Positions 16,504-32,230 of a stretch of 64,000 bases of DNA are shown in pieces (the stretch's first letter is position 1; the number at the start of each line of letters is the position of its first letter). The translations under genes were made by a program, and so were the position numbers. This stretch comes from Brevirhabdus pacifica (lineage in GTDB: Bacteria > Pseudomonadota > Alphaproteobacteria > Rhodobacterales > Rhodobacteraceae): positions 310,001-374,000 of the forward strand of contig NZ_PGFI01000012.1 in NCBI RefSeq assembly GCF_002797755.1, read 5' to 3'. Under the pieces are notes generated by a model that did no database searches, had not been told where the DNA came from, and saw only the letters and a program-made list of their open reading frames with translations.

Positions 16504-17208
16504 ATGAACGAAATAGTGCAAGGGCTGCTCGAGGCGGGGCGGATGATCGTCACCCTCGACCGCGACCTGATCGAGATCACCCTGCGCAGCCTGCAGGTGA
16601 CGCTGACGGCGGTGGTCATCGCCTCGGCCATCGGCTTGCCGATGGGGGCATGGCTGGCAATCAACCGCTTCCGTTTCCGCCGCGAGACGATCGCGCTGCT
16701 GAACGCGCTGATGGGGCTGCCGCCGGTGGTGGTGGGCCTGATCGTCTACCTGATGCTCAGCCGCTCGGGCCCGTTCGGGGTGTTCGGCCTTCTCTTCACG
16801 CCCACGGCGATGGTGATCGCGCAGGTCATCATCGTGACGCCGCTGGTGGCCTCGATCGCGCATCAGGCGATCCGCGATCTCTGGGCCGAGTATCACGACC
16901 TTCTCATCTCGCTCAACACGACCCGGGGACAGCGGATCCTGGCGCTGATCTGGGACGGGCGGCGGGCGCTTCTGACGGCCTCGCTTGCCGGGTTCGGCCG
17001 CGCCATCGGCGAGGTGGGGGCTATCATGATCGTCGGCGGCAACATCGACCACGCGACGCGGGTCCTGACCACCGCCATCGCGCTGGAGACGGGCAAGGGC
17101 AACTTCGCCCTGGCGCTTGGCCTGGGCTTTGTCCTGATCGGGCTGGCAATCGCGCTGAACATCGCCATCCACGCCCTGTCGCGCACCGAGAGGGACAGCC
17201 AATGGTAA
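16504..17208 (+). CDS. tupB: Tungstate-type ABC transporter permease TupB
   Basis: A 234-residue inner-membrane permease of the TupB/ModB type. About five hydrophobic segments are visible: around residues 30-52 (LQVTLTAVVIASAIGLPMGAW), 65-80, 92-115, 175-190 and 200-222. The cytoplasmic EAA-like loop is near LTASLAGFGRAIGEVGAIMIVGG. It imports tungstate (or molybdate) with TupA and TupC. The stop overlaps the tupC start by seven bases. The formate dehydrogenase downstream needs W or Mo, which supports the substrate guess. Confidence 0.87.
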   Translation: MNEIVQGLLEAGRMIVTLDRDLIEITLRSLQVTLTAVVIASAIGLPMGAWLAINRFRFRRETIALLNALMGLPPVVVGLIVYLMLSRSGPFGVFGLLFTPTAMVIAQVIIVTPLVASIAHQAIRDLWAEYHDLLISLNTTRGQRILALIWDGRRALLTASLAGFGRAIGEVGAIMIVGGNIDHATRVLTTAIALETGKGNFALALGLGFVLIGLAIALNIAIHALSRTERDSQW

Positions 17209-17918
17209 GCTCGATCCTGCCGCTCGAGGTCGCGGGCGCCTGCGTGCGAAAGCGCGGGGCGCACCTAGTGGGGCCGGTGGACCTGACGCTCACCGGCAAG
17301 GGGATCTCGATCCTGATGGGGCCGAACGGGTCGGGCAAGACCACGCTCTTGCGGCTTTTGCACGGGCTGGAGCGGCCGGCCACCGGCAGCCTGCGCTGGT
17401 CCGCCCCCGCCACCGAGGCGCGGCAGCGGCAGGCCTACGTCTTCCAGACCCCGATCATGATGCGCCGCTCGGTGCTGGATTCCATCGCCTACCCGATGAC
17501 CCTGCACGGCGAAAGGCGCGCCCGCGCCCGCGAGATGGCCCGCGACTGGGCAGAGCGGGTGGGCATCGGCCACGCGATCGACCGGCATGCGACCGTGCTG
17601 TCGGGCGGCGAGAAGCAGAAGCTGGCCCTGGCCCGCGCCCTCATCCGGCAGCCCGACGTGCTGTTTCTGGACGAGCCCTGTGCGAACCTGGACGGCCGCG
17701 CCACCCGCGAGATCGAGGCGATCCTGACCCGCGCCCGCGACGAAGGGGTGCGCATCGTCATGGCGACCCACGATATGGGCCAGGCGCGGCGTCTCGCCGA
17801 CGAGGTCCTGTTCCTCCTCAAGGGCCGGTTGCACAGCTCCGGGCCGGCCGATACGTTCTTCTCGCACCCGCGAACACCAGAGGCGAAAGCCTTTCTGAAC
17901 GGAGACATCCTCGAATGA
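17202..17918 (+). CDS. tupC: Tungstate-type ABC transporter ATP-binding protein TupC
   Basis: A 238-residue ATPase. Walker A is GPNGSGKTT (residues 40-48), the ABC signature LSGGEKQKLALARAL, Walker B VLFLDEP, then the switch His in ATHDMGQARRLADEV. The Q-loop region reads AYVFQTPIMMRRSV. The frame runs open upstream of 17202 but there it is the tupB sequence out of phase, so I start at the ATG overlapping the tupB end. The stop overlaps tupA as ATGA, so the three genes are translationally coupled. Confidence 0.9.
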   Translation: MVSSILPLEVAGACVRKRGAHLVGPVDLTLTGKGISILMGPNGSGKTTLLRLLHGLERPATGSLRWSAPATEARQRQAYVFQTPIMMRRSVLDSIAYPMTLHGERRARAREMARDWAERVGIGHAIDRHATVLSGGEKQKLALARALIRQPDVLFLDEPCANLDGRATREIEAILTRARDEGVRIVMATHDMGQARRLADEVLFLLKGRLHSSGPADTFFSHPRTPEAKAFLNGDILE

Positions 17919-18877
17919 TCACTTCGCGAATTTCTGCCACTGTTTCAGCCATTTGCGTCAGTGCTGCGCTTGCAGCACCGGCAATGGCCGAAGAGATGAA
18001 AATGGCGGTCACGACATCGTTCCACAACTCGGGGCTGAGTGAGGTCCTGCTGCCTGCAATCAAGACGGATCTCGATATCGACCTGCAACTTCTGGTCGTC
18101 GGCACCGGCCAAGCGCTGAAGCTGGGCGAATCCGGGGATGTGGACGCCATCCTCGTCCATTCCCGCTCTGCCGAGGAGGCCTTTGTCGATGCCGGCCACG
18201 GCACCGAACGCACCGAGATCATGTACAACGACTTCGTCCTGATCGGGCCCGAGCAGGACCCCGTCGGCGTCGCCCTGTCCAAGGACGCCGCCGAGGCGAT
18301 GTCGCGCATGGCCCTTGGGGAGCACAGCTTCGTCAGCCGCGGCGACGACAGCGGCACCCACAAGAAGGAACTGGCGCTCTGGGCCAGCGCCGAGGAGAAC
18401 CCCGAAAAGTTCGGGTCCTGGTACCGCGCCGTGGGCGCGGGCATGGGATCGGCGCTGAACACGGCCGCCGGCATGGACGCCTACATCATGTCCGACCGGG
18501 CGAGCTGGCTGAACTTTGGCAACAAGGGCGATCTGAAACTGCTGTTCTCGGGCGATCCGGTGCTGTTCAACCAATACGCCTACATCCCCGTGAACCCGCA
18601 GAAGCACCCCCACGTGAAGGCCGAGCTTGCGACCCGTCTGAAGGACTGGCTTGTCAGTGATCGCGCGCGGGAGCTGATCGACGGCTACAAGCTGAACGGC
18701 GAGCAGCTTTTCACCTTCAACGCGGTCGACCCCAACGCCGAACCCGCCCCCGAGCAGGGCGAGGCGGCCGAGGAAGAGGTCGAGGCCCAGGACCCCGACA
18801 CCACCGAGGTTTCGCCCGAGCAGACCCAGCCGCTGGAGCCCGAGACCGAGGTCGAGGCGTCCAAGCCCGCAAAGTAA
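17915..18877 (+). CDS. tupA: Tungstate-type substrate-binding protein TupA with acidic tail
   Basis: A 320-residue periplasmic binding protein with a Sec signal peptide (residues 1-25, AAPAMA). The oxyanion-binding motif is TTSFHNSGL at 33-41. The TupA blocks VVGTGQALKLGESGDVDAILVH, FVSRGDDSGTHKKELALW and IMSDRASWL follow, with the last helix region at 237-270. Residues 271-320 are a low-complexity Glu/Pro/Asp-rich tail not usual in TupA. TupA binds tungstate with high affinity in characterised members, and some relatives take molybdate. A terminator follows within about 40 bases. Confidence 0.9.
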   Translation: MITSRISATVSAICVSAALAAPAMAEEMKMAVTTSFHNSGLSEVLLPAIKTDLDIDLQLLVVGTGQALKLGESGDVDAILVHSRSAEEAFVDAGHGTERTEIMYNDFVLIGPEQDPVGVALSKDAAEAMSRMALGEHSFVSRGDDSGTHKKELALWASAEENPEKFGSWYRAVGAGMGSALNTAAGMDAYIMSDRASWLNFGNKGDLKLLFSGDPVLFNQYAYIPVNPQKHPHVKAELATRLKDWLVSDRARELIDGYKLNGEQLFTFNAVDPNAEPAPEQGEAAEEEVEAQDPDTTEVSPEQTQPLEPETEVEASKPAK

Positions 18878-18994: not shown

Positions 18995-19597
18995 TCAGTC
19001 CTGCTTGTCTGTCCCGGGGGCGTGGCTGTGGCCGTGGTCATGCCCGTGATCGTGCCCATGGTCGTGCCCATGCCCATGATCGTGCCCATGATCATGACCG
19101 TGCGCATGGTCGTGACCGTCTTCTTCCAACTCGCCGTGGATGGCGAATTGTTCAAGATCGGCCTCCTGTGCCTCGATGGCCCGGAAGGCCTCGCGCACGC
19201 CGGCGTCGGTCAACTCCCGCGAAACGCAAAGCAGGGTGTTCGGGTCCTGATCCTCGCAAAGCTCGACCATCAGGGCCATCTCGTCCCGTGCCACGCCATA
19301 GGCGGCCTCGATCCCCGGGGCGCCGTAGACGTCGACGAAATGCTGCGCCAGGTTGTGGGTCAGCGCCTCGTATTCGGGCTTTTCGATCGTGGTGACGGCG
19401 ACGAAGGTCACCCGGCCGAAGGTCTCGATGCCCAGCCAGCCGTTGGAGAACGCCTGCTTGGCCTTGCCGCTCAGGTCGGCCTGGGACCAGTTGGAGAATT
19501 CGAACCCTCCCGAGATGCACCACTCCCCGGTGCGGGCGGGGCTGTGAAAGACCAGGGAATCGCTTTCGTCGAAATGGATGGCACGGGCCAGTTTCAT
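18995..19597 (-). CDS. DUF6505-type protein with long His-rich tail
   Basis: A 200-residue protein of unknown function that I recognise as the DUF6505 type found beside the formate dehydrogenase accessory genes in Rhodobacteraceae. It has no signal peptide or membrane segment. Residues 1-155 form a compact acidic/aromatic domain (ARAIHFDESDSLVFH, GEWCISGGFEFSNW). Residues 162-192 alternate His with Asp and Gly (about 20 His), resembling the metal-storing tails of UreE or HypB chaperones. It is the last gene of the DUF6494-mrp-DUF4444-DUF6505 chain, coupled by ATGA. A role in holding a metal for cofactor or chelatase work is inference. Confidence 0.85.
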   Translation of the reverse strand: MKLARAIHFDESDSLVFHSPARTGEWCISGGFEFSNWSQADLSGKAKQAFSNGWLGIETFGRVTFVAVTTIEKPEYEALTHNLAQHFVDVYGAPGIEAAYGVARDEMALMVELCEDQDPNTLLCVSRELTDAGVREAFRAIEAQEADLEQFAIHGELEEDGHDHAHGHDHGHDHGHGHDHGHDHGHDHGHSHAPGTDKQD

Positions 19598-20397
19598 CGG
19601 CAGGGGGTTCCTTCAAGAAGATCGGTGAGCGGCAGCAGCCGCGTGGTCTGTGCGGTGGCGTCGCCGGCGTCGGCGTCGGCTTCTGCATCGGCCCCGGTAT
19701 CGGATTGGGGGCGCAGAAGCATCCCGAAATCCTCGTCCACGCCGATGAAGGTGCCTTGGACCCGCTCGCCGCCCGGCAGGGTGAAGTCCACCGCCTCGCC
19801 CAGCTTCACGACAAGGCCTTCCCACTCGGCGTGCAGGGGTTTCACGCCCTCGTCGTCCCAGCGGTTGATCCACAGCAGGCTGTGGCGCGCCCAGGCTTCC
19901 AGCAGAAGGGGCGGCAGCACCTCGGAACAGCCCTCATCGTAAAGCGAGGTCTGGTCGGGCGTCAGGCCCGGCGTCTCGGGGTCCTGGGGGATCAGCTGTA
20001 AAGTGAAACCCACGACCAGCCAGCCCGGCGGCTCCGTTGCGTCCCCCTCCGAGGCGGCGACGCGGAAGCGGCCGCATCGGGCGCCGTTGACCAGGATATC
20101 CCCATCCCAGGAAAGCAGCACGGCGACCTCGGGCGGGGCCAGCACGCCCAGAGCGTTCTGAAGGCCGATGCCCAGGGTCGGCAGCATCACCATCGCCTTG
20201 CCCAGCGGCACCTCGGGCGCCAGCACCAGCGCCGCCGACAGGGTGTCGGCGGTGATGGCGTGGGTGATCAGCCCCGCGTCGCAGCCTTCCTGCGCGCGGG
20301 CGCAGGCCAGGGCGAAAGGATCCTCGCCCCGGGCGGCTTCCAGCCCCTCCATCAGGGGCGGGAAGGACGGGGCGATCTGGTCTTCGTCCGCCGTCAT
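19594..20397 (-). CDS. Biotin/lipoate ligase-like protein (DUF4444 type), probably lacking ligase catalysis
   Basis: A 267-residue protein with a biotin/lipoate protein ligase-like core and a C-terminal DUF4444 region (GGERVQGTFIGVDEDFGMLLR, SH3-like). The strand that in BirA carries the WPND motif reads SWDGDILVNGARCGRF here: WPND is changed to WDGD (residues 97-100), and the catalytic Lys of the KxxG motif appears as Arg107. The GRGRxG loop is not visible. It may therefore bind a small molecule or a partner rather than ligate. It overlaps both mrp and DUF6505 by ATGA, so it belongs to the formate dehydrogenase accessory set. Confidence 0.82.
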   Translation of the reverse strand: MTADEDQIAPSFPPLMEGLEAARGEDPFALACARAQEGCDAGLITHAITADTLSAALVLAPEVPLGKAMVMLPTLGIGLQNALGVLAPPEVAVLLSWDGDILVNGARCGRFRVAASEGDATEPPGWLVVGFTLQLIPQDPETPGLTPDQTSLYDEGCSEVLPPLLLEAWARHSLLWINRWDDEGVKPLHAEWEGLVVKLGEAVDFTLPGGERVQGTFIGVDEDFGMLLRPQSDTGADAEADADAGDATAQTTRLLPLTDLLEGTPCR

Positions 20398-21464
20398 CCG
20401 TTCCCCTCTTCGATCATCCGGCGGGCGACGGCGCGGAAGGCCTCGGCTTGGGGCGAGTTGGGCTTTGACACCACGATCGGGGCGCCCCCGTCGGCCGCCA
20501 TGCGGATATCGAGGTGCAGCGGGATCTCGGCCAGCAGCGGCACGCCGATCTTCTCGGCCTCGGCCGCGACACCGCCATGGCCGAACAGATGCTCCTCGTG
20601 GCCGCAGTTCGAGCAGATGTGCGTCGACATGTTCTCGATCATGCCGATGACTTTCACGTTCATCTTCTTGAACATGTCCAGACCTTTGCGGGCATCCAGC
20701 AGGGCCACGTCCTGGGGTGTCGAGACGACGATCGCGCCAGTGATCTCGGCCTTCTGGCTGAGGGTCATCTGCACGTCGCCGGTGCCGGGCGGCAGATCCA
20801 CGATCAGCACGTCAAGCGCGCCCCACTGGACCTGGTTCATCATCTGCTGCAGGGCGCCCATCAGCATCGGTCCACGCCAGACGACGGCCTCGTCCTCGCG
20901 GGTCATAAGGCCGATGGACATCATGGTGACGCCGTGGTTGCGCAGGGGCAGGATGGTCTTGCCGTCTGGGCTGGCAGGCCGGCCCGAAACGCCCAGCATC
21001 CGGGGCTGTGAAGGGCCGTAGACATCGGCGTCGAGCAGGCCCACACGGCGGCCTTCGGCGGCCAGGGCCACGGCCAGGTTGGCGGCGACGGTGGACTTGC
21101 CTACCCCGCCCTTGCCCGATGCGACGGCGATGATCCGGTCGACCCCGGCGATCTTCTGGGGGCCCTTGGGCGCGGCGGGCTTGCCCCCGCCCTTGAGGTC
21201 GGGCGGCGGCGCGGCGGCGGCATGGGCCGTCATCACCGCCGAGACGTTGCTGACACCGGCCAGGCCGCGGACCGTCTCCTCGGCCTCGGCGCGCACGGGC
21301 TCCATCATCTTGGCGCGGGCGGGGTCGATCTCGAGCACGAAGCGCACGGTCCCCTCCTCGACGTTGAGCGCACGGATCAGGCCCGCGCTCACCACGTCCT
21401 TGCCGGTGTTGGGATCGGTCACGCCCTTCAGCGCTTCGAGGACGTCATCGCGGCTGAGGCTCAT
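20394..21464 (-). CDS. mrp: Mrp/NBP35-family Fe-S cluster carrier ATPase
   Basis: A 356-residue cytosolic P-loop ATPase that carries 4Fe-4S clusters to target enzymes. Residues ~5-85 are the MIP18/DUF59 domain (DVLEALKGVTDPNTGKDVVSAG). The deviant Walker A is ASGKGGVGKST. LLDADVYGPSQPRMLG and VDLPPGTGDVQMTL follow, and the bridging-cluster motif CSNCG lies near residue 270. Mrp proteins also occur elsewhere as housekeeping genes. Its tight coupling to DUF6494 and DUF4444 beside a formate dehydrogenase with many Fe-S clusters suggests it matures those clusters. Confidence 0.93.
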   Translation of the reverse strand: MSLSRDDVLEALKGVTDPNTGKDVVSAGLIRALNVEEGTVRFVLEIDPARAKMMEPVRAEAEETVRGLAGVSNVSAVMTAHAAAAPPPDLKGGGKPAAPKGPQKIAGVDRIIAVASGKGGVGKSTVAANLAVALAAEGRRVGLLDADVYGPSQPRMLGVSGRPASPDGKTILPLRNHGVTMMSIGLMTREDEAVVWRGPMLMGALQQMMNQVQWGALDVLIVDLPPGTGDVQMTLSQKAEITGAIVVSTPQDVALLDARKGLDMFKKMNVKVIGMIENMSTHICSNCGHEEHLFGHGGVAAEAEKIGVPLLAEIPLHLDIRMAADGGAPIVVSKPNSPQAEAFRAVARRMIEEGNG

Positions 21465-21684: not shown

Positions 21685-21714
21685 TTGACGGCCGAAACCC
21701 TCGGCCCCTAGGCT
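21685..21714 (+). promoter_or_regulatory. Candidate sigma-70 promoter for the TupA-like cytochrome c gene
   Basis: TTGACG at 21685-21690, 18 bases, then TAGGCT at 21709-21714. Transcription would start near 21721, leaving a short leader with a GGGGAGG ribosome site about 11 bases before the ATG at 21748. Found by eye only. Confidence 0.4.
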
Positions 21715-21747
21715 GACGGCAGGGCACTCAGGGGAGGCCGACTGCCG

Positions 21748-22545
21748 ATGCGATCCGGTTGGAAGCTTGTGTTGACCTTCACGGTCCTTTTGTCCAGCGC
21801 TCTTGCCGCCGGCGCACAGGATCGCCAGGTCGTTGTCGCGGCCGATCCGGCCCTTGAAAGCAGCGGGTTGATGGCCCACCTGGCCCCCCGCTTCCTGCTC
21901 AAGACCCGCATAAGGGTGTTGAGCGTTCCGTTCGAGAATGCCGCCGGCGCCGGCGGCGCGGACGTCCTGCTTGCCCCTGTCGAGGCCCTGCCCGATGCCG
22001 CCCCCGCCCTGCGCGACGAGGCGCGGACCTACGCGGTGCGATCGACCCACGAGAATGCCGACGCGGCCGCGGCCACCTATGCCGCGCGCTTCGTCGACTG
22101 GCTGACCTCCGAGATCGGCGGCAACACCGTCGCGGCCTTCGCGCCTGGTGGCACGCAGATCTATTTCCCGGCCACTGGCCCCGCCGCCGATGCAAGCGGG
22201 CCCGCGCCCACGGGTGACGCGGTCCTGGGCGAGAAACTGTCGCTGACCTTCTGCGGGCGCTGCCATGTGGTCGGGCCGCAGAACCGGATGAAGGGCCTGG
22301 GATCGACCCCGTCCTTCGGCGTGATGCGCACCTTTGCCGACTGGGAAGTGCGGTTCAGCACGTTCTACCTGCTCAACCCGCACCCGTCCTTCACCCAGAT
22401 CGCCGACGTGACCGAGCCCTTCGACGAGGGCCGGCCGCCACCGATCATCCCCCTCGAGATGACGATGGAGCATCTCGAGGCGATCATGGCCTATGTGACC
22501 GGCATCGATCCGGCCGATCTGGGCGCCCCCATCCGGCATCAGTGA
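21748..22545 (+). CDS. Secreted monohaem cytochrome c fused to a shortened TupA-like region
   Basis: A 265-residue protein. Residues 1-23 are a Sec signal peptide (ending AAGA). Residues 27-78 resemble the start of a tungstate-binding protein (ADPALESSGLMAHLAPRF, then IRVLSV and GGADVLLAPV). Residues 112-140 (AARFVDWLTSEIGGNTVAAF, then GGTQIYF) resemble the TupA C-terminal segment ATRLKDWLVSD...NGEQLFTF. The middle ~150 residues of TupA are missing. Residues ~160-265 are a cytochrome c domain with the haem motif CGRCH at 169-173 and candidate axial Met near EMTMEH. Probably a periplasmic electron carrier for the formate dehydrogenase. It ends overlapping the convergent ferredoxin gene by 7 bases. 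Confidence 0.85.
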   Translation: MRSGWKLVLTFTVLLSSALAAGAQDRQVVVAADPALESSGLMAHLAPRFLLKTRIRVLSVPFENAAGAGGADVLLAPVEALPDAAPALRDEARTYAVRSTHENADAAAATYAARFVDWLTSEIGGNTVAAFAPGGTQIYFPATGPAADASGPAPTGDAVLGEKLSLTFCGRCHVVGPQNRMKGLGSTPSFGVMRTFADWEVRFSTFYLLNPHPSFTQIADVTEPFDEGRPPPIIPLEMTMEHLEAIMAYVTGIDPADLGAPIRHQ

Positions 22546-24596
22546 TCCTTGCGATCCGAGTAATAGTCGTCGGTTGTGCGCGGGCGCGGCCGCTCGGCGC
22601 CTGCGAAGGGGTTGTTTTGCGAATGATACTGGGCGTTCACCCGGCAATCATCGCACATCTGGATCATCTTGGCGGCCTCGCTGGTGGCGAACATCGAATG
22701 CTTGCCGGCCAACTTCTCGGTGATCCGCTCGATGGTGGAGCGCACGCCGAAGGTCTTGCCGCAGGAGATGCAGTCGAAGGGCTCCTCCTCGTGCAGGACC
22801 TGCTGACGATAGACCTCGTCGGAGAGGTTGAAGCGCGGCTCCAGCGTGATCGCATCCTCGGGGCAGATCGCGGCGCAGAGGCCGCATTGCAGGCAGGCAT
22901 CCTCCTGGAAGCGAAGCTGTGGCGTGTCGGGGTTGTCGCCCAATGCCCCGGCGGGGCACAGGCCCGCGCAGGAGAGGCAGAGCGTACAGGCCTCGGTATC
23001 GACCAGGACCGCGCCGTAGGGCGCGCCCTCGGGCAGCGAGAACACCGCCTCGGAGCCGGGGTGAAGCGCCTTGGCCGCAAGCCGCGTCACCTGGCGGCGG
23101 CTGCCGAGCGACAGCGCGGCCTCCCCGACGCCCACCAGCGGGGACATCCCCTCGGCGGGGGCCAGGGCCTCGGTCAGCATCGTCGGGTCCGAAATGTCCA
23201 AGAGCCGGACGCGGACGGCGCTTTCCTCTTCGCCCCCTGCCCCGGCCAGCGCGTTGGCCAGCGCGGCCTCGCGTTCCAGCGCGTCGCGCTCGCTGTTGGG
23301 CGAAAGCAGCAGGTCGATGCCCGTAAAGCCGGCGGCCAGCGCCACCATCGCCTCGGCATGTCCGAAGCCCGAGATCGTCTCGAGGCCCAGGGGGATCACG
23401 TCGGCGGGCAGACCTTCGGCGAAGCGCGCGTTCAGGGCGATCATTTCGGCGCCGAACTCGGCGTCGTGGACCAGCAGGCGCGGTGCCTGCCCCCCGGCGC
23501 GGGCATAGGCGGCGGCCAGGGTCTCGATCCGGCGGAACAGGAAGGATACGGGCGGCGCGTCATAGGTGATCGCCCCCGAGGGGCAAAGCGCCGAGCAGGC
23601 GCCACAGCCGGCACAGACCATCGGGTCGATGGCGACATGGTCCCCGGCGGGCGAGATCGCCCCGGTCGGACAGATGTCGAGACAGTTGTGACAGCCCACG
23701 CGACCCGCGCGCGAATGGGCGCAGAGCGACTCTTCCAGCCGCACGTAAAGGGGCTTTTCGAATGTGCCGACCATCTGCGCGGCCTCGAAGACGGCACCCT
23801 CGACCGCGCCGCGATCGCCCGGGTCGACCCGCAGGTAGCCGTCGCGCTTGGCGGGCGCAGGAAAGAGCGAGGTGGCACCGCTGAGGTCCAGGATCAGATC
23901 ACAGCGGGTTTCGGCCCCGTCCATGGGCGGGGTCAGGGTGAAGGCCCCGCGTCCGCCGGGCTCCAGCTGTTGCAGCGCGTCGATGGCCAGGGTGAAGTTG
24001 CCCAGCGTGCCCTGGGCCTTGCGCAACCGCCCGGCCACGATCTCGAAGCGCCGGTCGATGGGCAGATCCGCCGCCATGTCCGTGGCGTGGGTGGTCTGCC
24101 CGGTCAGCAGGACCGTTACCGCCAGCGTCTCGCACAGGCGTTCGGCGGCCGGCAGCGCCACTTCGGGCGCGCCCAGGATCAGGCAGATCCCCTCGGACTG
24201 GACGTCGAGGGCGCGAGCATCGGGCGGGGTGAGACGGGCCTCGGCGACGAGGGCCGCCTGTTTCGGGCCGGCCTCCTCGGCGTGGCTGGACCAGCCGGCG
24301 CGGTCGCGGATGTCGACGAACTGCGGCAGTTCGGCCCCGATCTCGGCGGCAAGCTCCTCGAAGCGGGCGCGCTCCTGCTGGCAGGCGATGGTGACCTCGC
24401 CATCCAGCATCGCCTGTGCCGCCAGGTCGGCCTGGCGGGTGCAAAGGGCGGTATGGACGCGCGAACAGGCGATCTCTGCCCCTGCCTCGATCTTGGCCGG
24501 GTCCACCTTCTGACTTCCCAGGCAGTCGCACAGAATTAGCGTATTGGTCACATCGATCCCCATAAATCGTTTCATTGCCGCGTCGTCATGCGGCAA
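22539..24596 (-). CDS. Multi-cluster 4Fe-4S ferredoxin-type protein of the formate dehydrogenase island
   Basis: A 685-residue cytosolic protein with no signal peptide. Four 4Fe-4S sites are readable: C292/302/305/309, C328/331/334/338, C537/540/543/547 and C568/571/574/578. Two extra CxxC pairs lie at 609/612 and 648/651. The N-terminus has C23, C25, C44, C52 and C72 in a pattern (CDCLGSQ, CSRVHTALC) reminiscent of heterodisulfide-reductase-type electron proteins. It probably moves electrons for formate dehydrogenase or cofactor maturation; the partner is unknown. Start uncertain: 24596 gives MPHDDAAMKRF, 24575 gives MKRF, and neither has a strong ribosome site. Divergent from the fdh operon. 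Confidence 0.85.
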   Translation of the reverse strand: MPHDDAAMKRFMGIDVTNTLILCDCLGSQKVDPAKIEAGAEIACSRVHTALCTRQADLAAQAMLDGEVTIACQQERARFEELAAEIGAELPQFVDIRDRAGWSSHAEEAGPKQAALVAEARLTPPDARALDVQSEGICLILGAPEVALPAAERLCETLAVTVLLTGQTTHATDMAADLPIDRRFEIVAGRLRKAQGTLGNFTLAIDALQQLEPGGRGAFTLTPPMDGAETRCDLILDLSGATSLFPAPAKRDGYLRVDPGDRGAVEGAVFEAAQMVGTFEKPLYVRLEESLCAHSRAGRVGCHNCLDICPTGAISPAGDHVAIDPMVCAGCGACSALCPSGAITYDAPPVSFLFRRIETLAAAYARAGGQAPRLLVHDAEFGAEMIALNARFAEGLPADVIPLGLETISGFGHAEAMVALAAGFTGIDLLLSPNSERDALEREAALANALAGAGGEEESAVRVRLLDISDPTMLTEALAPAEGMSPLVGVGEAALSLGSRRQVTRLAAKALHPGSEAVFSLPEGAPYGAVLVDTEACTLCLSCAGLCPAGALGDNPDTPQLRFQEDACLQCGLCAAICPEDAITLEPRFNLSDEVYRQQVLHEEEPFDCISCGKTFGVRSTIERITEKLAGKHSMFATSEAAKMIQMCDDCRVNAQYHSQNNPFAGAERPRPRTTDDYYSDRKDH

Positions 24597-24933: not shown

Positions 24934-24973
24934 ATGCCGCCGAATGCCACCTCGTTGCCTCTTGGCATCGTGA
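24887..24973 (+). CDS. Possible 28-residue leader ORF overlapping the DUF3305 start
   Basis: ATG at 24887 follows AAGGGGA at a good distance (8 bases) and opens a 28-codon, Arg-rich reading frame (MAHRKMAPVARRSLTVCRRM...) ending TGA at 24973, overlapping the DUF3305 start in another frame. The DUF3305 ribosome site is 12 bases from its own ATG, rather far, so coupling through this ORF is imaginable. It may also be chance. No homologue known to me. Confidence 0.2.
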   Translation: MAHRKMAPVARRSLTVCRRMPPRCLLAS

Positions 24974-25521
24974 TTCGAAAATCACCGGGCGTCACCCGCT
25001 GGGCGGCCTGGAACTGGAAGGCCGTTGCGGTTCTTCCGGGCGCCGGCCCCGAGTCGTGGAAGGAACTGCGCCGCGACGGCGAGACGGTGGAATATCACGC
25101 GGGCACCATCCGGCTGGAACTTCATCGCACCGATACAGAGGCTTACCTGACGACCCTCGCGGGGCGCACGCCCTCGGTCTGCGTCGTCATGCGCCCGACC
25201 GAAAAGCCCACGCCGCCCGCCAACCTCGAGGTTGTGTTCGTGACCGCGTCGGCCTTCGAGGCCCAGGATTACTGTGACAACGCCGAGGACATCGTCGAGC
25301 TGGTTCCAATGCCCGCCGGTCTTGTCGCTTTCGTTCAGGAATTCTGCGACACTCACCACGAAGAGGAGGTCTTCGTGAAACGTCGCCGCGACCGCATCCG
25401 CACCGACCGGCAGGAAAATGGCAAGGGCGACAGCCGCATCCGCCAGGTCTCGGACGTGTATCGCGCACCGCGCCGCGCCGCCAACGCCCCCACCGGGGCC
25501 GACACGGGGACGGACGGATGA
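24934..25521 (+). CDS. DUF3305 protein, first gene of the fdh operon
   Basis: A 195-residue soluble protein recognisable as DUF3305, a family found almost only next to DUF3306 and formate dehydrogenase genes in proteobacteria. The core (residues ~5-140) has PLGIVIRKSPGVTRWAAWNWKAVAVLPG, EYHAGTIRLELHRTDTEAY and PSVCVVMRP; the rest is charged and basic (KRRRDRIRTDRQENGKGD), probably disordered. Function is not known; an assembly or metal-insertion role for the formate dehydrogenase is inferred from context only. Overlaps DUF3306 as ATGA. Confidence 0.88.
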   Translation: MPPNATSLPLGIVIRKSPGVTRWAAWNWKAVAVLPGAGPESWKELRRDGETVEYHAGTIRLELHRTDTEAYLTTLAGRTPSVCVVMRPTEKPTPPANLEVVFVTASAFEAQDYCDNAEDIVELVPMPAGLVAFVQEFCDTHHEEEVFVKRRRDRIRTDRQENGKGDSRIRQVSDVYRAPRRAANAPTGADTGTDG

Positions 25522-26330
25522 GTGCGCGCGGAAACTTCTGGTCCCGCCGCAAGGCGGCCGTGCGTGCCGAGGAACAGGCCGCCGCCCGCGCCGAGCAGGA
25601 GCTGCGCGAAGCCCGCGAGCTGGCCGAACTGGAAAGCACTCAGGCCGAGAAAACCGACGAGGAATTGCTGGAAGAGCTGGGCCTCCCCGATCCCGACACG
25701 CTGGGCAAGGGCGCCGATTTCGCCGCCTTCATGGCCCGCTCCGTGCCCGACCGCCTGCGCCGCCGCGCGCTGCGCCGGCTTTGGCTGTCCGATCCCGTGC
25801 TGGCCAACCTCGACGATCTGGTGGATTACGCCGACGATTACACCGACGCGGCGACCTGCGTTGAGAACCTTCAGACCGCCTATCAGGTCGGCCGCGGCAT
25901 GACCCGCCACGTGGAGGCGATGGAAGCCAAGGCCCGCGCCCTCGCCGACGCGCTTGAAAACCCGCAGGATGGCGACGAAGGCACAAAGGTCGCCGACGCC
26001 GCGTCTGCCGAGGGTTCGGAAAGCTCCAGCTCGCTCCGCCTGCCCGAGGCCGGGTCGCGCACCGCGGCCCATGGCTCGGCCGAGAATGCCCGCGCCCGGG
26101 GCCTCGCCCCCGAAACCGAGATGGAAGACGCGGCCCAGGAGATGGCCGAGGGCGACAGCCCCGAGGACATCGACGACGAGACCGCAGATGCGATGGCCGA
26201 GCTTCGGCCGCGCGACGCCTACACCCATGACGACGAAGGGATGAGCCCCGCCCCCCGGCGGCACATGCGCTTTTCCTTCGCCGAAACCGCGTCCCCCGCG
26301 GATGCCCATAGTTCGAAAGGCAGGTTCTGA
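25518..26330 (+). CDS. DUF3306 protein of the fdh operon
   Basis: A 270-residue soluble protein of the DUF3306 type. The N-terminus is a charged coiled-coil-like stretch (FWSRRKAAVRAEEQAAARAEQELREA), followed by the conserved core LLEELGLPDPDTLGKGADFAAFMARSVPDRLRRRALRRLWLSDPVLANLDDLVDYADDY, here residues ~48-115. The C-terminal half is acidic, low-complexity and likely disordered. Partner of DUF3305; no enzymatic motif seen. Coupled by ATGA upstream and TGATG to the chaperone gene downstream. Confidence 0.88.
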   Translation: MSARGNFWSRRKAAVRAEEQAAARAEQELREARELAELESTQAEKTDEELLEELGLPDPDTLGKGADFAAFMARSVPDRLRRRALRRLWLSDPVLANLDDLVDYADDYTDAATCVENLQTAYQVGRGMTRHVEAMEAKARALADALENPQDGDEGTKVADAASAEGSESSSSLRLPEAGSRTAAHGSAENARARGLAPETEMEDAAQEMAEGDSPEDIDDETADAMAELRPRDAYTHDDEGMSPAPRRHMRFSFAETASPADAHSSKGRF

Positions 26331-26935
26331 TGGCCGAAACCGCCCAGGAGATGATCGCGGAAGAGGATCGGCTGCGCGCTGATCTTTACGATTTTCTCGG
26401 TGTGCTGCTGGCAACGCCGCCGGACAAGGTGCTGTTGCAGAAGACCCGCGCCCTGTCGGGTGACGACAGCGAACTGGGCCAGGCGGTGCAATCGCTGGCG
26501 CGGCTGGCGGGGGCGACCTCTCCTTCCGTCGCCGAAGCCGAGTTCAACGCGCTCTTCATCGGCCTCGGCCGGGGGGAGCTGCTGCCCTATGCCAGCTACT
26601 ACCTGACCGGCTTCCTGAACGAAAAGCCCCTCGCCGCCCTGCGCGGTGACATGGGGCGGCTGTCGATCATCCGCGCGCCCAACGTCTTCGAGCCCGAGGA
26701 CAATATCGCCAGCCTCTTCGAGATGATGGCCGGTCTGATCACCGGCCGCTTCGGCGCCCCGGCCCCGGTCAGCGTGCAGAAGGATTTCTTCAACCGCCAC
26801 CTCGGCCCCTGGGCCGGACATTTCTTCACCGATCTCGAGGGGGCCAAGAACTCGGTCTTCTATGCGCCCGTGGGCGCCGCCGGCCGGGCCTTCATCGAGA
26901 TCGAGAAAGACGCCTTTCGCATGACCGCGGACTGA
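26330..26935 (+). CDS. TorD/DmsD-type molybdoenzyme chaperone
   Basis: A 201-residue all-helical chaperone of the TorD/DmsD/NarJ superfamily (LRADLYDFLGVLLATPPDKVLL, then YASYYLTGFLNEKPLAALRGDMGRL and the loop region PEDNIASLFEMMAGLI; C-terminal FFNRHLGPWAGHFFTDLE). These proteins bind Tat signal peptides of molybdenum/tungsten enzymes and hold export until the cofactor is in. Located just before the two Tat-signal genes of this operon, so FdhA is the likely client. Starts at the ATG overlapping the DUF3306 stop. Confidence 0.9.
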   Translation: MAETAQEMIAEEDRLRADLYDFLGVLLATPPDKVLLQKTRALSGDDSELGQAVQSLARLAGATSPSVAEAEFNALFIGLGRGELLPYASYYLTGFLNEKPLAALRGDMGRLSIIRAPNVFEPEDNIASLFEMMAGLITGRFGAPAPVSVQKDFFNRHLGPWAGHFFTDLEGAKNSVFYAPVGAAGRAFIEIEKDAFRMTAD

Positions 26936-26977
26936 TCCGCGACCACCGGGCCACGGCCCAAAGACAGGAGAATCCAG

Positions 26978-27175
26978 ATGAGCAAAAGAACAGACGGCGA
27001 GAAAGCTAATCGCCGAAACTTTCTCAAGCTTGCTTCGGTTTCCGCCCCCGCCGCCGCGGCCGCCGTGCTGACCGGCACCCAGGCCGAGGCCGCGGATGCG
27101 CTCGACGACGGCAAGCGCGAGGGGATGCAGGATACGGCGCATACCCGCGCCTACTACGACAGCGCCCGTTTCTGA
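26978..27175 (+). CDS. Small Tat-signal protein of formate dehydrogenase regions
   Basis: A 65-residue protein matching the short formate dehydrogenase region TAT target family. The twin-arginine motif is in ANRRNFLKLASV (RR at 12-13), then an Ala-rich hydrophobic segment to about residue 38, leaving a mature part of only ~27 residues (ADALDDGKREGMQ...). AGGAG lies eight bases before the ATG. Its role is unknown: perhaps a third subunit or a Tat-pathway decoy for the chaperone. It sits between torD and fdhA. Confidence 0.9.
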   Translation: MSKRTDGEKANRRNFLKLASVSAPAAAAAVLTGTQAEAADALDDGKREGMQDTAHTRAYYDSARF

Positions 27176-27279
27176 CGGCCGTTCGGACCATTGGTTTCGG
27201 GCGTTGATGATGCCCGCGGCCGCCTTCATCGAAAACCCGGCAACCCGGACTTGGACCGGGAAGCTTATCGGAGGTAACA

Positions 27280-30267
27280 ATGCTCAGGAAAAAGACCAGC
27301 GGGGTCGCCCGGCGCCCTCAGCGGACATCGCTCCTGTCCAATATTTCGGAAAAGGCCCTTGATCGCCGCGCATTCCTGCGCGGATCCGGTCTGGCCATCG
27401 GCGGTCTGGCCGCCATCGGCGCCACCGGCGGCACCGTCACCCGCGCCTCGGCCCAGCAGGCCGTGCAGGGTGCGGTCCAGACGGTGAAGTCGGTCTGCAC
27501 CCACTGCTCGGTCGGCTGTACGGTCGTGGCCGAGGTCAACAACGGCGTGTGGGTCGGCCAGGAACCCGGCTGGGACAGCCCCTTCAACCTCGGTTCGCAC
27601 TGCGCCAAGGGCGCATCGGTGCGTGAACATGCCCATGGCGAGCGTCGCCTGAAGTATCCGATGAAGAAGGAAGGCGGTCAGTGGAAGCGCATCAGCTGGG
27701 AGACGGCGATCAACGAGATCGGCGACGGCATGATGAAGATCCGCGAAGAGTCGGGGCCGGATTCGGTCTACTGGCTGGGATCGGCCAAGCACAGCAATGA
27801 ACAGGCCTACCTGTTCCGCAAGTTCGCCGCCTACTGGGGCACGAACAACGTGGACCACCAGGCCCGCATCTGCCACTCGACCACCGTGGCGGGCGTTGCG
27901 AACACATGGGGCTACGGCGCCATGACCAACAGCTACAACGACATCCACAACTCCAAGGCGATCTTCGTGATCGGCGGCAACCCTGCCGAGGCGCACCCCG
28001 TCTCGCTGCTGCACCTTCTCAAGGCCAAGGAGCAGAACAACGCGCCGCTGATCGTCTGCGATCCGCGCTTCACTCGCACCGCCGCCCACGCTGACGAATA
28101 CGTCCGCTTCCGGCCCGGTTCGGACGTGGCGCTGGTCTGGGGCATCCTGTGGCACATCTTCGAGAACAGCTGGGAAGACAAGGACTTCATCCGCACCCGC
28201 GTCTGGGGCATGGACGAGATCCGCGCCGAAGTTGCCCGCTGGACCCCCGAAGAGGTCGAGCGCGTCACCGGCACCCCCGGCAGCCAGCTGCGCCGCGTCG
28301 CCATGACCCTGGCCAACAACCGTCCCGGCACCGTGATCTGGTGCATGGGCGGCACCCAGCACACCAACGGCAACAACAACACCCGCGCCTACTGCATCCT
28401 GCAGCTTGCCCTTGGCAACATGGGCACCTCGGGTGGTGGCACCAACATCTTCCGCGGCCATGACAACGTTCAGGGCGCGACCGATCTTGGCGTTCTTGCC
28501 GATACCCTGCCCGGCTACTACGGCCTGGCGCCCGGCTCCTGGGCCCACTGGGCCCGCGTCTGGGAAGAGGATCTGGACTGGCTCAAGGATCGCTTCGCCG
28601 TCATGGAAGGCGCCGATGCCGACGGCAAGGACCGGATGATGATGAACTTCACCGGGATTCCGGTGAGCCGCTGGATCGACGGCGTGCTTGAGGATCGCGA
28701 GAACCTCGATCAGCCCGACAACACCCGCGCCATGGTTCTCTGGGGTCACGCCCCCAACTCGCAGACCCGTCAGAAAGAGATGAAGACGGCGATGGAGAAG
28801 CTGGACATGCTGGTCGTGGTGGACCCCTATCCCACCGTCTCGGCCGTGCTGCATGACCGCACCGACGGCGTCTACCTGCTGCCGGCCGCGACCCAGTTCG
28901 AGACCCGCGGCTCGGTCACGGCTTCGAACCGGTCGCTCCAGTGGCGCGATCAGGTCGTGGCACCGCTGTTCGAAAGCAAGCCCGACCACACCATCCTGCA
29001 CATGTTCGCCGAGAAGTTCGGCTTTGCAGACCGCATGTTCCGCAACATCGCGGTCGAGGATGGCGAGCCCAACGTCGAGGACACCACCCGCGAGTTCAAC
29101 CGCGGCATGTGGACGATCGGCTACACCGGCCAGTCTCCGGAACGCATGAAGCTGCACATGGAGAACCAGCACACCTTCGACCGCACCACGCTGCGCGCGG
29201 TTGGCGGCCCGGCCGATGGCGACTACTACGGCATGCCCTGGCCCTGCTGGGGAACGCCCGAGATGAAGCATCCCGGGACGGCGAACCTCTATGACCTGTC
29301 TCTGCCGGTGGCAGAGGGCGGCCTGACCTTCCGCGCGCGCTTCGGCGTCGAGCGGGACGGGCAGAACCTTCTGGCCGAGGGCGTCTACTCGGCGGGCTCG
29401 GAAATCCAGGATGGTTATCCCGAGTTCACCATGGCCATGCTGCAGGAACTGGGTTGGGACAAGGACCTGTCCGGCTACGAGCGCCGGGCGATCGAGTATG
29501 TCGCGGGCTTCCGCGACCAGCGTCCCGTCGCCGGCGAGGAAGAGGTCGGCGAGACCTCGCAGCAGGGTGAGATCCCGTCCGACTACAACGAGAAGGTCGG
29601 CGGCGTGAACTGGAAGACCGACCTTTCGGGCGGTATCCAGCGTGTCGCGATCGCCCATGGCTGCGCCCCCTTCGGCAACGCCAAGGCCCGCGCCGTGGTC
29701 TGGACCTTCCCGGATCCGGTCCCGCTTCACCGCGAGCCGCTCTACTCCAACCGCCGTGACCTGGTGGCCGACTACCCGACCTACGACGACAAGAAGTTCT
29801 GGCGGGTGCCGACCATGTACAAGTCGATCCAGGAGAAGGACTTCTCCGAGGATTATCCGATCATCCTCACCTCCGGCCGTCTGGTCGAATACGAGGGTGG
29901 CGGCGACGAGACCCGGTCCAACCCCTGGCTGGCCGAGCTTCAGCAGGACATGTTCGTCGAGATCAATCCCCGCGATGCCAACAACCTGGGCGTTCGCGAC
30001 GGATCGCAGGTCTGGGTCGAAGGTCCTGAGGGCGGCAAGGTCAAGGTCATGGCAATGGTGACCGAGCGGGTTCATTCCGGCGTCGCCTTCATGCCCTTCC
30101 ACTTCGGTGGCCACATGGAGGGCGTAGACCTGCGGGACAAGTATCCCGACGGTGCAGACCCCTACGTGCTGGGTGAATCGACCAACACGGCACAGACCTA
30201 CGGCTATGACTCGGTGACCCAGATGCAGGAGACAAAAGCCACTCTCTGCAAGATCTGGGCAGCATAA
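27280..30267 (+). CDS. fdhA: Formate dehydrogenase catalytic (alpha) subunit, Tat-exported, Cys-type
   Basis: A 995-residue periplasmic W/Mo-bis(MGD) enzyme oxidising formate to CO2. The Tat motif is DRRAFLRG (RR at 29-30). The proximal 4Fe-4S cluster is held by C73, C76, C80 and C108. The metal ligand is Cys198 followed by His199 (ARICHST), where E. coli FdnG has selenocysteine; hence no SECIS is needed. The molybdopterin-oxidoreductase core and the C-terminal dinucleotide-binding domain (ILTSGRLVEYEGGGDETRSNPWL) are complete. CGGAGG precedes the ATG. Tungsten is suggested by tupBCA nearby, but Mo is possible. FdhD, needed for sulfuration, is not in the window. Confidence 0.96.
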   Translation: MLRKKTSGVARRPQRTSLLSNISEKALDRRAFLRGSGLAIGGLAAIGATGGTVTRASAQQAVQGAVQTVKSVCTHCSVGCTVVAEVNNGVWVGQEPGWDSPFNLGSHCAKGASVREHAHGERRLKYPMKKEGGQWKRISWETAINEIGDGMMKIREESGPDSVYWLGSAKHSNEQAYLFRKFAAYWGTNNVDHQARICHSTTVAGVANTWGYGAMTNSYNDIHNSKAIFVIGGNPAEAHPVSLLHLLKAKEQNNAPLIVCDPRFTRTAAHADEYVRFRPGSDVALVWGILWHIFENSWEDKDFIRTRVWGMDEIRAEVARWTPEEVERVTGTPGSQLRRVAMTLANNRPGTVIWCMGGTQHTNGNNNTRAYCILQLALGNMGTSGGGTNIFRGHDNVQGATDLGVLADTLPGYYGLAPGSWAHWARVWEEDLDWLKDRFAVMEGADADGKDRMMMNFTGIPVSRWIDGVLEDRENLDQPDNTRAMVLWGHAPNSQTRQKEMKTAMEKLDMLVVVDPYPTVSAVLHDRTDGVYLLPAATQFETRGSVTASNRSLQWRDQVVAPLFESKPDHTILHMFAEKFGFADRMFRNIAVEDGEPNVEDTTREFNRGMWTIGYTGQSPERMKLHMENQHTFDRTTLRAVGGPADGDYYGMPWPCWGTPEMKHPGTANLYDLSLPVAEGGLTFRARFGVERDGQNLLAEGVYSAGSEIQDGYPEFTMAMLQELGWDKDLSGYERRAIEYVAGFRDQRPVAGEEEVGETSQQGEIPSDYNEKVGGVNWKTDLSGGIQRVAIAHGCAPFGNAKARAVVWTFPDPVPLHREPLYSNRRDLVADYPTYDDKKFWRVPTMYKSIQEKDFSEDYPIILTSGRLVEYEGGGDETRSNPWLAELQQDMFVEINPRDANNLGVRDGSQVWVEGPEGGKVKVMAMVTERVHSGVAFMPFHFGGHMEGVDLRDKYPDGADPYVLGESTNTAQTYGYDSVTQMQETKATLCKIWAA

Positions 30268-30280
30268 GGAGAAATGAGAA

Positions 30281-30874
30281 ATGGGAAGAGCTAAGTTTCT
30301 CTGTGACGCTGAACGCTGCATCGAGTGCAACGCATGTGTCACGGCGTGCAAGAACGAGCACGAGGTGCCCTGGGGCATCAACCGTCGCCGTGTGGTGACG
30401 ATCCAGGACGGCAAGCCGGGCGAACGCTCGATCTCGGTGGCCTGCATGCATTGTTCGGACGCGCCTTGCATGGCCGTCTGCCCGGTGGATTGCTTCTACC
30501 AGGACGAGGAGGGCATCGTGCTGCACTCCAAGGATCTGTGCATCGGCTGCGGCTACTGCTTCTACGCGTGCCCCTTCGGCGCGCCGCAGTATCCCCAGGC
30601 CGGCAACTTCGGCAGCCGTGGCAAGATGGACAAGTGCACCTTCTGCGCCGGCGGCCCCGAGGCCGACGGCTCCACTGCCGAGTTCCAGAAATACGGCCGC
30701 AACCGGATCGCCGAGGGCAAGCTGCCCATCTGCGCCGAGATGTGCTCGACCAAGGCGCTGCTTGCCGGTGACGGCGACGTCGTCTCGGCGATCTACCGCG
30801 AGCGGGTCGTGGCCCGGGGCTTCGGCTCGGGCGCCTGGGGCTGGGGAACCGCCTATGGCCAGAAGGGCGGCTAA
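30281..30874 (+). CDS. fdhB: Formate dehydrogenase iron-sulfur (beta) subunit
   Basis: A 197-residue electron-transfer subunit with ferredoxin-type clusters: C13/16/19/23 (CIECNACVTAC), then CMHCSDAPCMAVCP, LCIGCGYCFYACP, and the last set from CTFCAGG plus ICAEMC, i.e. the four-cluster FdnH/FdoH pattern. It has no signal or C-terminal anchor helix, so it is probably exported with FdhA by piggy-back on its Tat signal. GGAG lies 9 bases before the ATG, 13 bases after fdhA. It passes electrons from FdhA to the cytochrome b subunit. Confidence 0.94.
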   Translation: MGRAKFLCDAERCIECNACVTACKNEHEVPWGINRRRVVTIQDGKPGERSISVACMHCSDAPCMAVCPVDCFYQDEEGIVLHSKDLCIGCGYCFYACPFGAPQYPQAGNFGSRGKMDKCTFCAGGPEADGSTAEFQKYGRNRIAEGKLPICAEMCSTKALLAGDGDVVSAIYRERVVARGFGSGAWGWGTAYGQKGG

Positions 30875-30926
30875 GCAGCCCTTCGCAAGAAAACGGGGCC
30901 GGGCATGTTCCGGCCCCCACCCATGA

Positions 30927-30950
30927 CGGGGCGGGCATTCGCCCGCCCCG
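30927..30950 (+). repeat. Strong hairpin between fdhB and the gamma subunit gene
   Basis: Perfect 10-base-pair stem (CGGGGCGGGC, loop ATTC, complement) 52 bases after fdhB and 34 before the gamma gene. No T-run follows, so it is more likely an mRNA-stability or attenuation element giving more FdhAB than downstream proteins than a full terminator. Confidence 0.55.
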
Positions 30951-30984
30951 CGTCACATCCGACCCGCTGTCTTCCAAGGAACAC

Positions 30985-32229
30985 ATGATGCCGATGCTCC
31001 GCGCCCTGCTCACCCTCTTGACGGTCATCGTCCTGACCTCCACCGCGCCGGCCCCCGGCGTGGCCCAGGTCGTCCAGGACGGATACGTCATCGACAACCG
31101 CGAGAAGACGGGCGGTGCCCAGACCCTCGAGGACATCATCGCCCGCCAGAAGGGCGTGAAGATCGACGACAGTTTCCGCCGTAACGCCACCGGCGGCGGC
31201 GACACCGGCCTGCCCGAAACCGCACCCCTGGGCACGCTGGGCGGCGCCTCGGACCCCGAACTCTGGCGCGCCCTGCGCTACAACTCGGCCGATGTCATCG
31301 CCTCGTCCCGCACACCCGGCGCCACTGTCCTGGTGCAGGAGGGCGGCATGTGGTGGCTGGACTTCCGCGCCGGCCCGCTGCGCACCTACGGCGGCTGGCT
31401 GCTGCTGGGCACGCTGGGCCTGCTGGCGCTGTTCCTGCTGCTGCGCGGGCGCATCCGCATCGAAGGGCCGATCACCGGCGTCACCCTGCCCCGCTTCAAC
31501 GGGTTCGAGCGATTCACCCACTGGATGACCGCCGTCAGCTTCGTGCTGCTGGGCATCTCGGGGCTGATCACGCTCTTTGGCCGCGTTGGCCTGATCCCCT
31601 ATGTGGGCAAGGAAAACTACGCCGTTCTGGCCCAGGCTTCCAAATGGGTCCACAACAACGTCAGCTGGGCCTTCATGCTGGGGATCATCCTGATCTTCGT
31701 TCTGTGGGTCGTGGAGAATATCCCCAACCGGCATGACGTGAAGTGGCTGATGATGGGCGGCGGCATCTTCTCGAAGGGCAAGCACCCGCCCGCCAAGAAG
31801 TTCAACGCCGGTCAGAAGATGATCTTCTGGGCGGTGATCCTGCTGGGCGTCTCGGTCTCGGCCTCGGGGCTGTCGCTGCTGTTCCCGTTCGAGGTGCCGA
31901 TGTTCGCGGCCACCTTCGCCTGGGTCAACGATCTGGGCCTGCCCCACTACCTGGGCATGGCGGACCTGCCCGGAACCCTTGCCCCGCACGAGGAGATGCA
32001 GTTCTCGCAGCTCTGGCACTCGATCGTGGCCTTCGTCTTCATGGCCGTGATCCTGGCGCACATCTACCTGGGAACCATCGGCATGGAAGGCGCGTTCGAC
32101 GCCATGGGATCCGGTCGTGTGGAAAAGCAATGGGCCAAGGAACACCACTCCATCTGGTACGAGGAACTGACCGGCGAGGACGCACATGCGCCGGACCATC
32201 CTCCGCACGCCCCCACGCCTGCCGAGTGA
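30985..32229 (+). CDS. fdhG: Formate dehydrogenase gamma subunit (cytochrome b), long form
   Basis: A 414-residue membrane subunit. A signal peptide (1-27) and a ~100-residue periplasmic extension precede the FdnI/FdoI-like cytochrome b core, which is about twice the size of E. coli FdnI. Membrane segments are seen near residues 132-152, 178-201, 225-250, 281-303 and 345-368. Likely haem b ligands include His in RFTHWM, KWVHNNVSW and LWHSIV/LAHIY. It takes electrons from FdhB to quinone or another carrier. AAGGA five bases before the ATG supports the start. Confidence 0.93.
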   Translation: MMPMLRALLTLLTVIVLTSTAPAPGVAQVVQDGYVIDNREKTGGAQTLEDIIARQKGVKIDDSFRRNATGGGDTGLPETAPLGTLGGASDPELWRALRYNSADVIASSRTPGATVLVQEGGMWWLDFRAGPLRTYGGWLLLGTLGLLALFLLLRGRIRIEGPITGVTLPRFNGFERFTHWMTAVSFVLLGISGLITLFGRVGLIPYVGKENYAVLAQASKWVHNNVSWAFMLGIILIFVLWVVENIPNRHDVKWLMMGGGIFSKGKHPPAKKFNAGQKMIFWAVILLGVSVSASGLSLLFPFEVPMFAATFAWVNDLGLPHYLGMADLPGTLAPHEEMQFSQLWHSIVAFVFMAVILAHIYLGTIGMEGAFDAMGSGRVEKQWAKEHHSIWYEELTGEDAHAPDHPPHAPTPAE

Positions 32230-32230
32230 C

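Follow-up and report, generated by a model that had tools for sequence, protein, structure and literature searches.

A formate dehydrogenase-linked cytochrome c with a predicted half domain derived from the tungstate-binding protein TupA

The formate dehydrogenase (fdh) gene cluster of Brevirhabdus pacifica encodes a protein, P0001, in which a cytochrome c domain follows an N-terminal half reminiscent of the tungstate-binding protein TupA, and this raises the question of what half a metal receptor might do beside a haem. A preliminary description of the 64,000-nucleotide stretch of DNA analysed here (the window) read the N-terminal half as a TupA whose first and last segments were joined directly after loss of about 150 residues, suggested either a metal-sensing or docking electron carrier or a remnant fold reused as a haem scaffold, and knew of no similar protein. 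It proposed three checks, namely a profile comparison with TupA, a structural model superposed on TupA and a survey of homologues near fdhA. Our own literature search, mostly outside subscription journals, likewise found no described protein of this kind.

The open reading frame of P0001 is real, with 12 full-length relatives beside it in the first alignment, and Pfam and NCBIfam assign it to no family. Among five plasmid records that hold the gene, four call the product 'hypothetical protein' and one 'c-type cytochrome'. The protein comprises, from its N terminus, a signal peptide, a half domain of TupA origin (residues ~25-145), a linker rich in Ala and Pro and a cytochrome c domain with one haem (Table 1), which bears out the attachment of a CGRCH haem domain to the TupA-like half. 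A signal peptide together with a CxxCH motif points to the periplasm, and P0001 is therefore inferred to be periplasmic.

The cluster runs in the order tupBCA, DUF6505, ligase-like, Mrp-like, cytochrome, 4Fe-4S, DUF3305, DUF3306, TorD-like, fdhABC and WD40-cytochrome, and both genes flanking that of the lobe-cytochrome lie on the opposite strand. The best NCBIfam match of fdhA is TIGR01591 (Fdh-alpha) at 474.7 bits, under the 666.25 cut-off of that family; because tupABC lies in the cluster, the enzyme is taken as tungsten-type. Fdh operons with DUF3305 and DUF3306 were noted earlier, and the accessible part of that report does not mention the lobe-cytochrome (PMC4464133). The source genome holds a second FdhA-like gene outside the window (C2:426777-428933), which shares 62% identity with residues 7-736 of the first. 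At the C terminus of the window's TupA is an acidic tail of ~50 residues (18725-18874, + strand), which the eight other TupAs in alignment A2 do not have. His/Asp/Gly-rich tails (HDHGHDHGH), possibly metal-holding segments, end the DUF6505 protein (18995-19597, - strand) and a CbiX-like protein named by eye (14959-16308, - strand).

Table 1. Position of the lobe-cytochrome gene, its parts and its neighbours in the window
Feature	Position	Strand	Basis or remark
Whole gene, lobe-cytochrome P0001 (fdh cluster)	21748..22545	+	265 aa plus stop
Signal peptide, residues 1-24	21748..21819	+	cleavage site by eye; model helix 3-21; sequence
TupA lobe-A-like domain, residues ~25-145	21820..22182	+	two segments matching both TupA ends; profiles, model
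Lobe-specific conserved patch, residues 48-56 (R48, F49, L50, L51, K52, T53, R56)	21889..21915	+	column comparison
Ala/Pro-rich linker, ~residues 146-155	22183..22212	+	sequence; mean pLDDT 67 at residues 141-150
Monohaem cytochrome c domain, residues 156-265	22213..22542	+	CGRCH 169-173, PHPSF 211-215
tupBCA, tungstate-type ABC transporter	16504..18877	+	Pfam, NCBIfam; tupC named by eye
tupA, full-length relative of the lobe	17915-18877	+	NCBIfam, alignment
DUF6505, biotin/lipoate-ligase-like and Mrp/ApbC-like genes; conserved upstream neighbours	18995..21464	-	Mrp named by eye
Polyferredoxin-like 4Fe-4S protein	22539..24596	-	convergent with cytochrome gene, 7 bp overlap
DUF3305, DUF3306, TorD-like, fdhA, fdhB, fdhC	24934..32229	+	TorD, fdhB, fdhC named by eye
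WD40 beta-propeller then cytochrome c domain, beside fdhC	32186-33664	+	Pfam

Kinship of the N-terminal half with TupA

The kinship between P0001 and TupA is visible only with profiles and structure, since a plain BLASTP comparison of P0001 with the TupA of the window gave nothing (best E 9.3) and Pfam and NCBIfam were negative. The TupA profile A2 has nine rows, none of them a cytochrome. Searched against the complete source genome translated in six frames, it found TupA first (E 4.2e-128), followed in second and third place, and in order, by segments of P0001: the C segment against profile positions 234-271 (E 2.4e-4) and the N segment against positions 10-60 (E 2.8e-3, a range that includes signal-peptide columns). 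The next match in the source genome stood at E 0.055. With signal peptides removed, all 78 lobes (77 loci plus the window's; L079, L083 and L095 left out) matched A2 at E<=1e-3 (Z=1000), and in every case both an N-part match and a C-part match exceeded 2 bits; at that threshold the controls gave 0 of 780 shuffled sequences, 0 of 78 reversed sequences and 0 of 78 haem halves. Because P0001 had led to eight of the nine rows in A2, which could favour the match, the comparison was repeated with 30 TupAs found via the window's TupA and chosen independently of P0001. Again 78 of 78 lobes matched in both segments, the window's at E 2.3e-5, and the controls were at zero, including those for the two-segment criterion. 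A comparison by hhalign of A1 with A2 (98.1%, E 8.7e-14) covers 49 columns that include the signal peptide and is for that reason not leaned on.

A profile of 60 lobe-bearing (long) forms, searched against 177,635 PDB sequences, placed 3muq (E 5.9e-5), 5my5 (6.3e-4), 3lr1 (2.4e-3) and 3cvg (2.7e-3) at the top, 5my5 and 3lr1 being TupAs and 3muq and 3cvg uncharacterised chains. Both 3muq and 5my5 align in the two segments, beginning to beginning and end to end; 3lr1 aligns in the first segment only and 3cvg in the second only. The fifth match, at E 0.043, is Alternative Complex III subunit A, aligned at its haem part. The TupA family NF041772 is touched by 40 of the 60 long-form members at E<=1 (best 5.4e-5), and its cut-off of 400 bits, which P0001 does not reach, does not discriminate here because the window's own TupA (195.9 bits) also misses it.

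An AF2 model built from 60 sequences has mean pLDDT values of 95-98 in nine of the 11 blocks of residues 31-140, the other two being at 78 and 84. It superposes on TupA 5my5 with Z 16.5 and an r.m.s.d. of 2.2 A over 120 residues, model residues 25-144 lying on chain residues 2-251; the next structural matches are 3cvg (Z 14.2), 3muq (14.1), ModA proteins (~13) and TupA 3lr1 (12.7). With other binding proteins scoring so closely the fold alone does not single out TupA, as the sequence does, so that while the binding-protein fold of the lobe is clear, the kinship with TupA rests more on sequence than on fold. Foldseek with the whole model gave no match at E<=0.001; its best was at 3.0e-3, followed by TupA 5my5 at 3.2e-3, with TMq <=0.35 in these.

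Across 398 genomes of the phylum, with the best 11 candidates per genome at most scored, a lobe-only profile at E<=1e-6 found seven lobe-cytochromes and 13 partial matches, all of the latter in full TupAs, and thus no other one-lobed protein. A TupA motif filter accepted three of these 13 loci and was too strict; by profile scoring all 13 are full TupAs (338-451 bits). Profiles and model together confirm the prediction that residues ~25-145 are a half domain derived from TupA, sharing with TupA (NF041772; 5my5, 3lr1) the topology of lobe A and the two segments in order.

Losses from TupA, newly fixed residues and the haem domain

In the TupA of DaG20, according to the accessible part of its description, lobe A comprises A2-R76 plus Y201-E251 and lobe B A91-Q200; the ligand site is made of TTTS in lobe A with R118, T124 and D170 opposite, and the Arg is the selectivity residue, R118E abolishing binding (PMC5517513). 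Between the matched segments lie ~173 residues in TupA and ~45 in P0001, a net loss of ~128, and by the DaG20 boundaries the missing part is essentially lobe B. P0001 does not have the two lobes with a cleft that a binding protein has, these ~128 middle residues being absent. The earlier picture of a deleted TupA therefore stands in that both ends are present in order; it does not stand in that the ends are separated by ~45 residues rather than joined directly, and the loss is smaller than the ~150 residues proposed. An equation of Tyr94 with TupA Tyr221 was ruled out, the column table giving Thr at residue 94, and we claim no exact junction residue. Direct repeats between tupA and the cytochrome gene within 15000-23000 are short, such as 28 nt at 71% in D4, and look like chance; no scar of a recent duplication was seen there.

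A column comparison of 80 lobes with 38 TupAs (L079 left out) shows that the ligand site has decayed while the core fold stayed. The TupA residues T33, T34 and H82 (100% of the 38 TupAs) and S35 and N38 (97%) are replaced in the lobes; T33 T34 S35 become D P A in P0001 and, in its relatives, P (64%), mixed residues and A (41%). The lobes lack the lobe-B motif SRGDDSGT together with the selectivity Arg, and they have no counterpart of the segment holding R118, T124 and D170. G40, P47 and W118 are invariant in lobes and TupAs, and L46 and F139 are the most frequent residues in either set, P0001 itself having A46 and Y139. By the same comparison a new conserved patch (RFSLKT..R, with basic R48, K52 and R56) has arisen: R48, F49, K52 and G124 are identical in 80 of 80 lobe rows, and S50, L51, T53 and R56 occur in ~86-96% of lobes (P0001 has L50), at positions where TupA varies, F standing in the F49 column in 44% of TupAs. 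Compared with TupA, then, P0001 lacks lobe B and the oxyanion site and has gained a haem domain and a basic patch.

The haem domain carries the CxxCH motif near its start, in common with class I cytochromes c (PF00034), and C169, C172 and H173 are invariant in 60 sequences. The window's domain scores 14.6 bits, below the PF00034 gathering cut-off of 21.3, and 51 of 60 relatives match that family at E<=1 (best 1.4e-4). Modelled without haem, the domain has a pLDDT of 72.7 and a best structural Z of only 6.6, to cytochrome c6; by title the structural matches, which include c6, c549/PsbV and SoxX, are cytochromes or entries with a cytochrome part, except for 4dy9, which is unplaced. A sequence search of the domain in the PDB aligned mostly the CxxCH helix (best E 0.007), and the same search with the relative L160 alone found no match.

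Class I cytochromes have a distal Met, whereas P0001 has none at the presumed distal place. The family shows PHPxF (also PHPAL, PHPVH and PHPAI) with an insert of ~18 residues where L160 has PHPVMPN. H212 and F215 are invariant in alignments A3 and A6, and no Met is invariant in either; M181, eight residues past the haem His, is found in at least 90% of long forms and replaced in most short ones. As judged from the place of the ligand in the alignment, the usual distal axial Met has probably been lost. Since it seems to be replaced, the haem probably has either the invariant His212 or nothing at its sixth position, and the potential should be lower than in Met-ligated cytochromes. In the fusions described in the accessible part of PMC6147048 the cytochrome c domain is joined to the molybdenum or tungsten enzyme itself, whereas in P0001 it is joined to half of a metal receptor.

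Genetic linkage, origin and selection

Among 295 genomes of the same family the long form was counted in 103 and the short form in two (G004, G078), so that in 103 of the 105 genomes with the cytochrome the match extends into the lobe; in all, one lobe is kept in ~100 sampled genera. The count of 103 rests on the extent of the matches, which in 100 genomes take in the N part of the lobe as well. Six matches begin after residue 45; three of these genomes (G136, G219, G223) have a further match over the N part, and three have the C part of the lobe only (G182, G211, G240). Eleven further family genomes with a match hold TupA segments only (four read, seven overlapping TupA matches).

The long form is tied to formate dehydrogenase by constant genetic linkage. 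An FdhA orthologue is present in 100 of the 103 long-form genomes against 129 of 295 overall (best two candidates per genome; matches with a best identity <=62%, in seven genomes, not counted as orthologues), and the three long-form genomes lacking an FdhA match are drafts in at least 210 contigs. TupA is present in 101 of 103 against 194 of 295 (best eight candidates per genome); the two drafts without a full TupA have a 67-residue partial match only (G250) or, as the sole A2 match at E<=1e-5, the lobe-cytochrome itself (8.0e-6; G313). Because 127 of the 129 FdhA genomes carry TupA, dependence on TupA is not separable from dependence on FdhA. In the neighbourhoods of the best 80 of 409 relatives, which overlap with the family genomes, mrp lies upstream in 74 of 78 loci and the 4Fe-4S gene downstream in 68 of 69; with room to judge, fdhA lies at most 10 kb downstream in 59 of 60, and tupA within ~10 kb upstream in 16 of 68. 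A WD40-cytochrome match above 90 bits occurs in 32 of these best 80 of 409, many of which end before that place, and this protein is a possible partner of the lobe-cytochrome.

The linkage is one-sided, as 29 of the 129 FdhA genomes have no long form, so that the lobe-cytochrome does not occur wherever the enzyme does. None of the 27 clusters fetched from these 29 genomes contains the haem domain at E<=0.01. In 17 of the 27, all of the same family (L165-L176, L179-L183), mrp and the 4Fe-4S gene adjoin with no cytochrome gene between them; in the remaining ten the cluster is rearranged, a flanking gene is missing or a contig end cuts the cluster short. The gene thus appears to be useful but dispensable, some fdh clusters being without it.

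In a class-wide sample the haem domain was found at E<=1e-6 in 18 of 385 genomes, 13 of them outside the window's family; 11 of the 13 are without the lobe as far as they could be read and two have it. Six lobe-less forms lie in fdh clusters of other families (L150-L153, L156, L158), with tupA within ~2 kb of the cytochrome gene in L152, L153 and L156. These short cytochromes, for which we found no family name, resemble P0001 in haem domain and fdh neighbourhood, but their signal peptide is followed directly by the haem domain. A haem-domain tree of 48 rows, which leaves out L116 (long) and L157 (short) through a motif cut as well as L160, places eight lobe-less forms outside a single clade (98/98) that contains 37 of 37 long forms together with three lobe-less ones (L150, L161, L162), a minimum of two changes; its root, L159, was chosen by us, its bootstrap had not settled, and the long branches L156, L158 and L159 meet. 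The tree, with weak inner support, suggests one gain of the lobe and then a later loss, inasmuch as the short L150, L161 and L162 nest with long forms. Long forms also occur in Defluviicoccus and other metagenome-assembled genomes (MAGs) outside Rhodobacteraceae, which suggests transfer or binning error; the Defluviicoccus MAG contigs L053, L055, L056, L057 and L078 contain the cluster, in part or whole, with the long form.

In the 11 closest pairs dN/dS is 0.09-0.38 for the lobe and 0.04-0.22 for the haem domain (L079 left out of the set). Several Defluviicoccus pairs at dS 0.37-0.47 have values of about 0.61-0.76 for the lobe, some distant pairs exceed 1 there, and the medians at dS 0.1-1.5 are 0.49 for the lobe (1,510 pairs) and 0.29 for the haem domain (1,523 pairs). 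The values are low in the closest pairs but higher in several Defluviicoccus pairs, and we therefore regard purifying selection on the lobe as moderate and as weaker than that on the haem domain.

Proposed role of the lobe and its alternatives

We think it somewhat probable that P0001 is an accessory periplasmic electron carrier for the adjacent formate dehydrogenase, in which the TupA lobe would serve as a docking or scaffold module and not as a metal sensor. A short cytochrome is already part of fdh clusters in other families, and in the family of the window, as in a few further Alphaproteobacteria, it bears lobe A of a TupA-type tungstate receptor at its N terminus. The lobe, as a rigid docking or positioning module, may keep the haem close against a partner within the formate dehydrogenase system, either periplasmic or in the membrane, so that the haem passes electrons while the lobe docks. 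The relative placement of lobe and haem domain is uncertain (model pTM 0.62). FdhABC may give its electrons to quinone without any cytochrome c, which counts against a carrier, as do the FdhA genomes that lack the long form and the faster evolution of the lobe compared with the haem domain. The suggestion of a remnant fold reused as a haem scaffold survives in part, in that reuse as a scaffold fits; a lobe kept in 103 of 105 genomes and bearing a newly fixed patch is not a mere remnant.

The lobe might instead be an inert spacer or stabiliser that binds nothing and keeps the haem domain soluble or distant. Its faster evolution would suit such a role, and the apparent loss of the lobe in L150, L161 and L162 lends it weak support. 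A fixed charged patch would be superfluous in a spacer, and the identity of R48, F49, K52 and G124 in all lobe rows against their variation in TupA makes this reading unlikely, if the strongest of the alternatives.

It is more doubtful that the lobe docks on the TupB permease as a one-lobed competitor of TupA and links the import of tungstate with the haem's redox state. The lobe does derive from the protein that docks there, TupA is enriched in long-form genomes, and tupA is sometimes close by. The enrichment is unspecific, however, since nearly all FdhA genomes have TupA, two long-form drafts are without a full TupA, and TupA does not conserve the residues that became fixed in the lobe patch. 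Related to this, and slightly less probable again, is a redox switch in which the lobe would bind the TupB half-site or another partner surface of TupA, and the redox or ligand state of the Met-less haem would throttle tungstate supply or formate dehydrogenase output.

That the lobe still binds tungstate or another oxyanion, making P0001 the metal-sensing electron carrier first suggested, is very improbable: its homology to TupA and its place among tupABC and fdh genes favour the idea, but the oxyanion residues are replaced and lobe B is gone with SRGDDSGT, whose selectivity Arg, to judge from the accessible part of the DaG20 work, binding cannot do without (PMC5517513). An unrelated fold with a chance or compositional likeness to TupA, which the negative BLASTP, family and Foldseek searches might have suggested, is already contradicted by the profile, PDB and model matches and their empty controls, and can be set aside.

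P0001 combines known domains, half a receptor and a haem domain, in an architecture of which we found no description. Two-lobed binding proteins are usually treated as units, and here is a traceable case in which half a receptor appears to have become a module: the lobe gave up its ligand site, acquired a fixed surface of its own and was joined to a haem, an old receptor part apparently reused as a building block. The lobe-cytochrome would be a testable accessory factor for the formate dehydrogenases of many marine bacteria.
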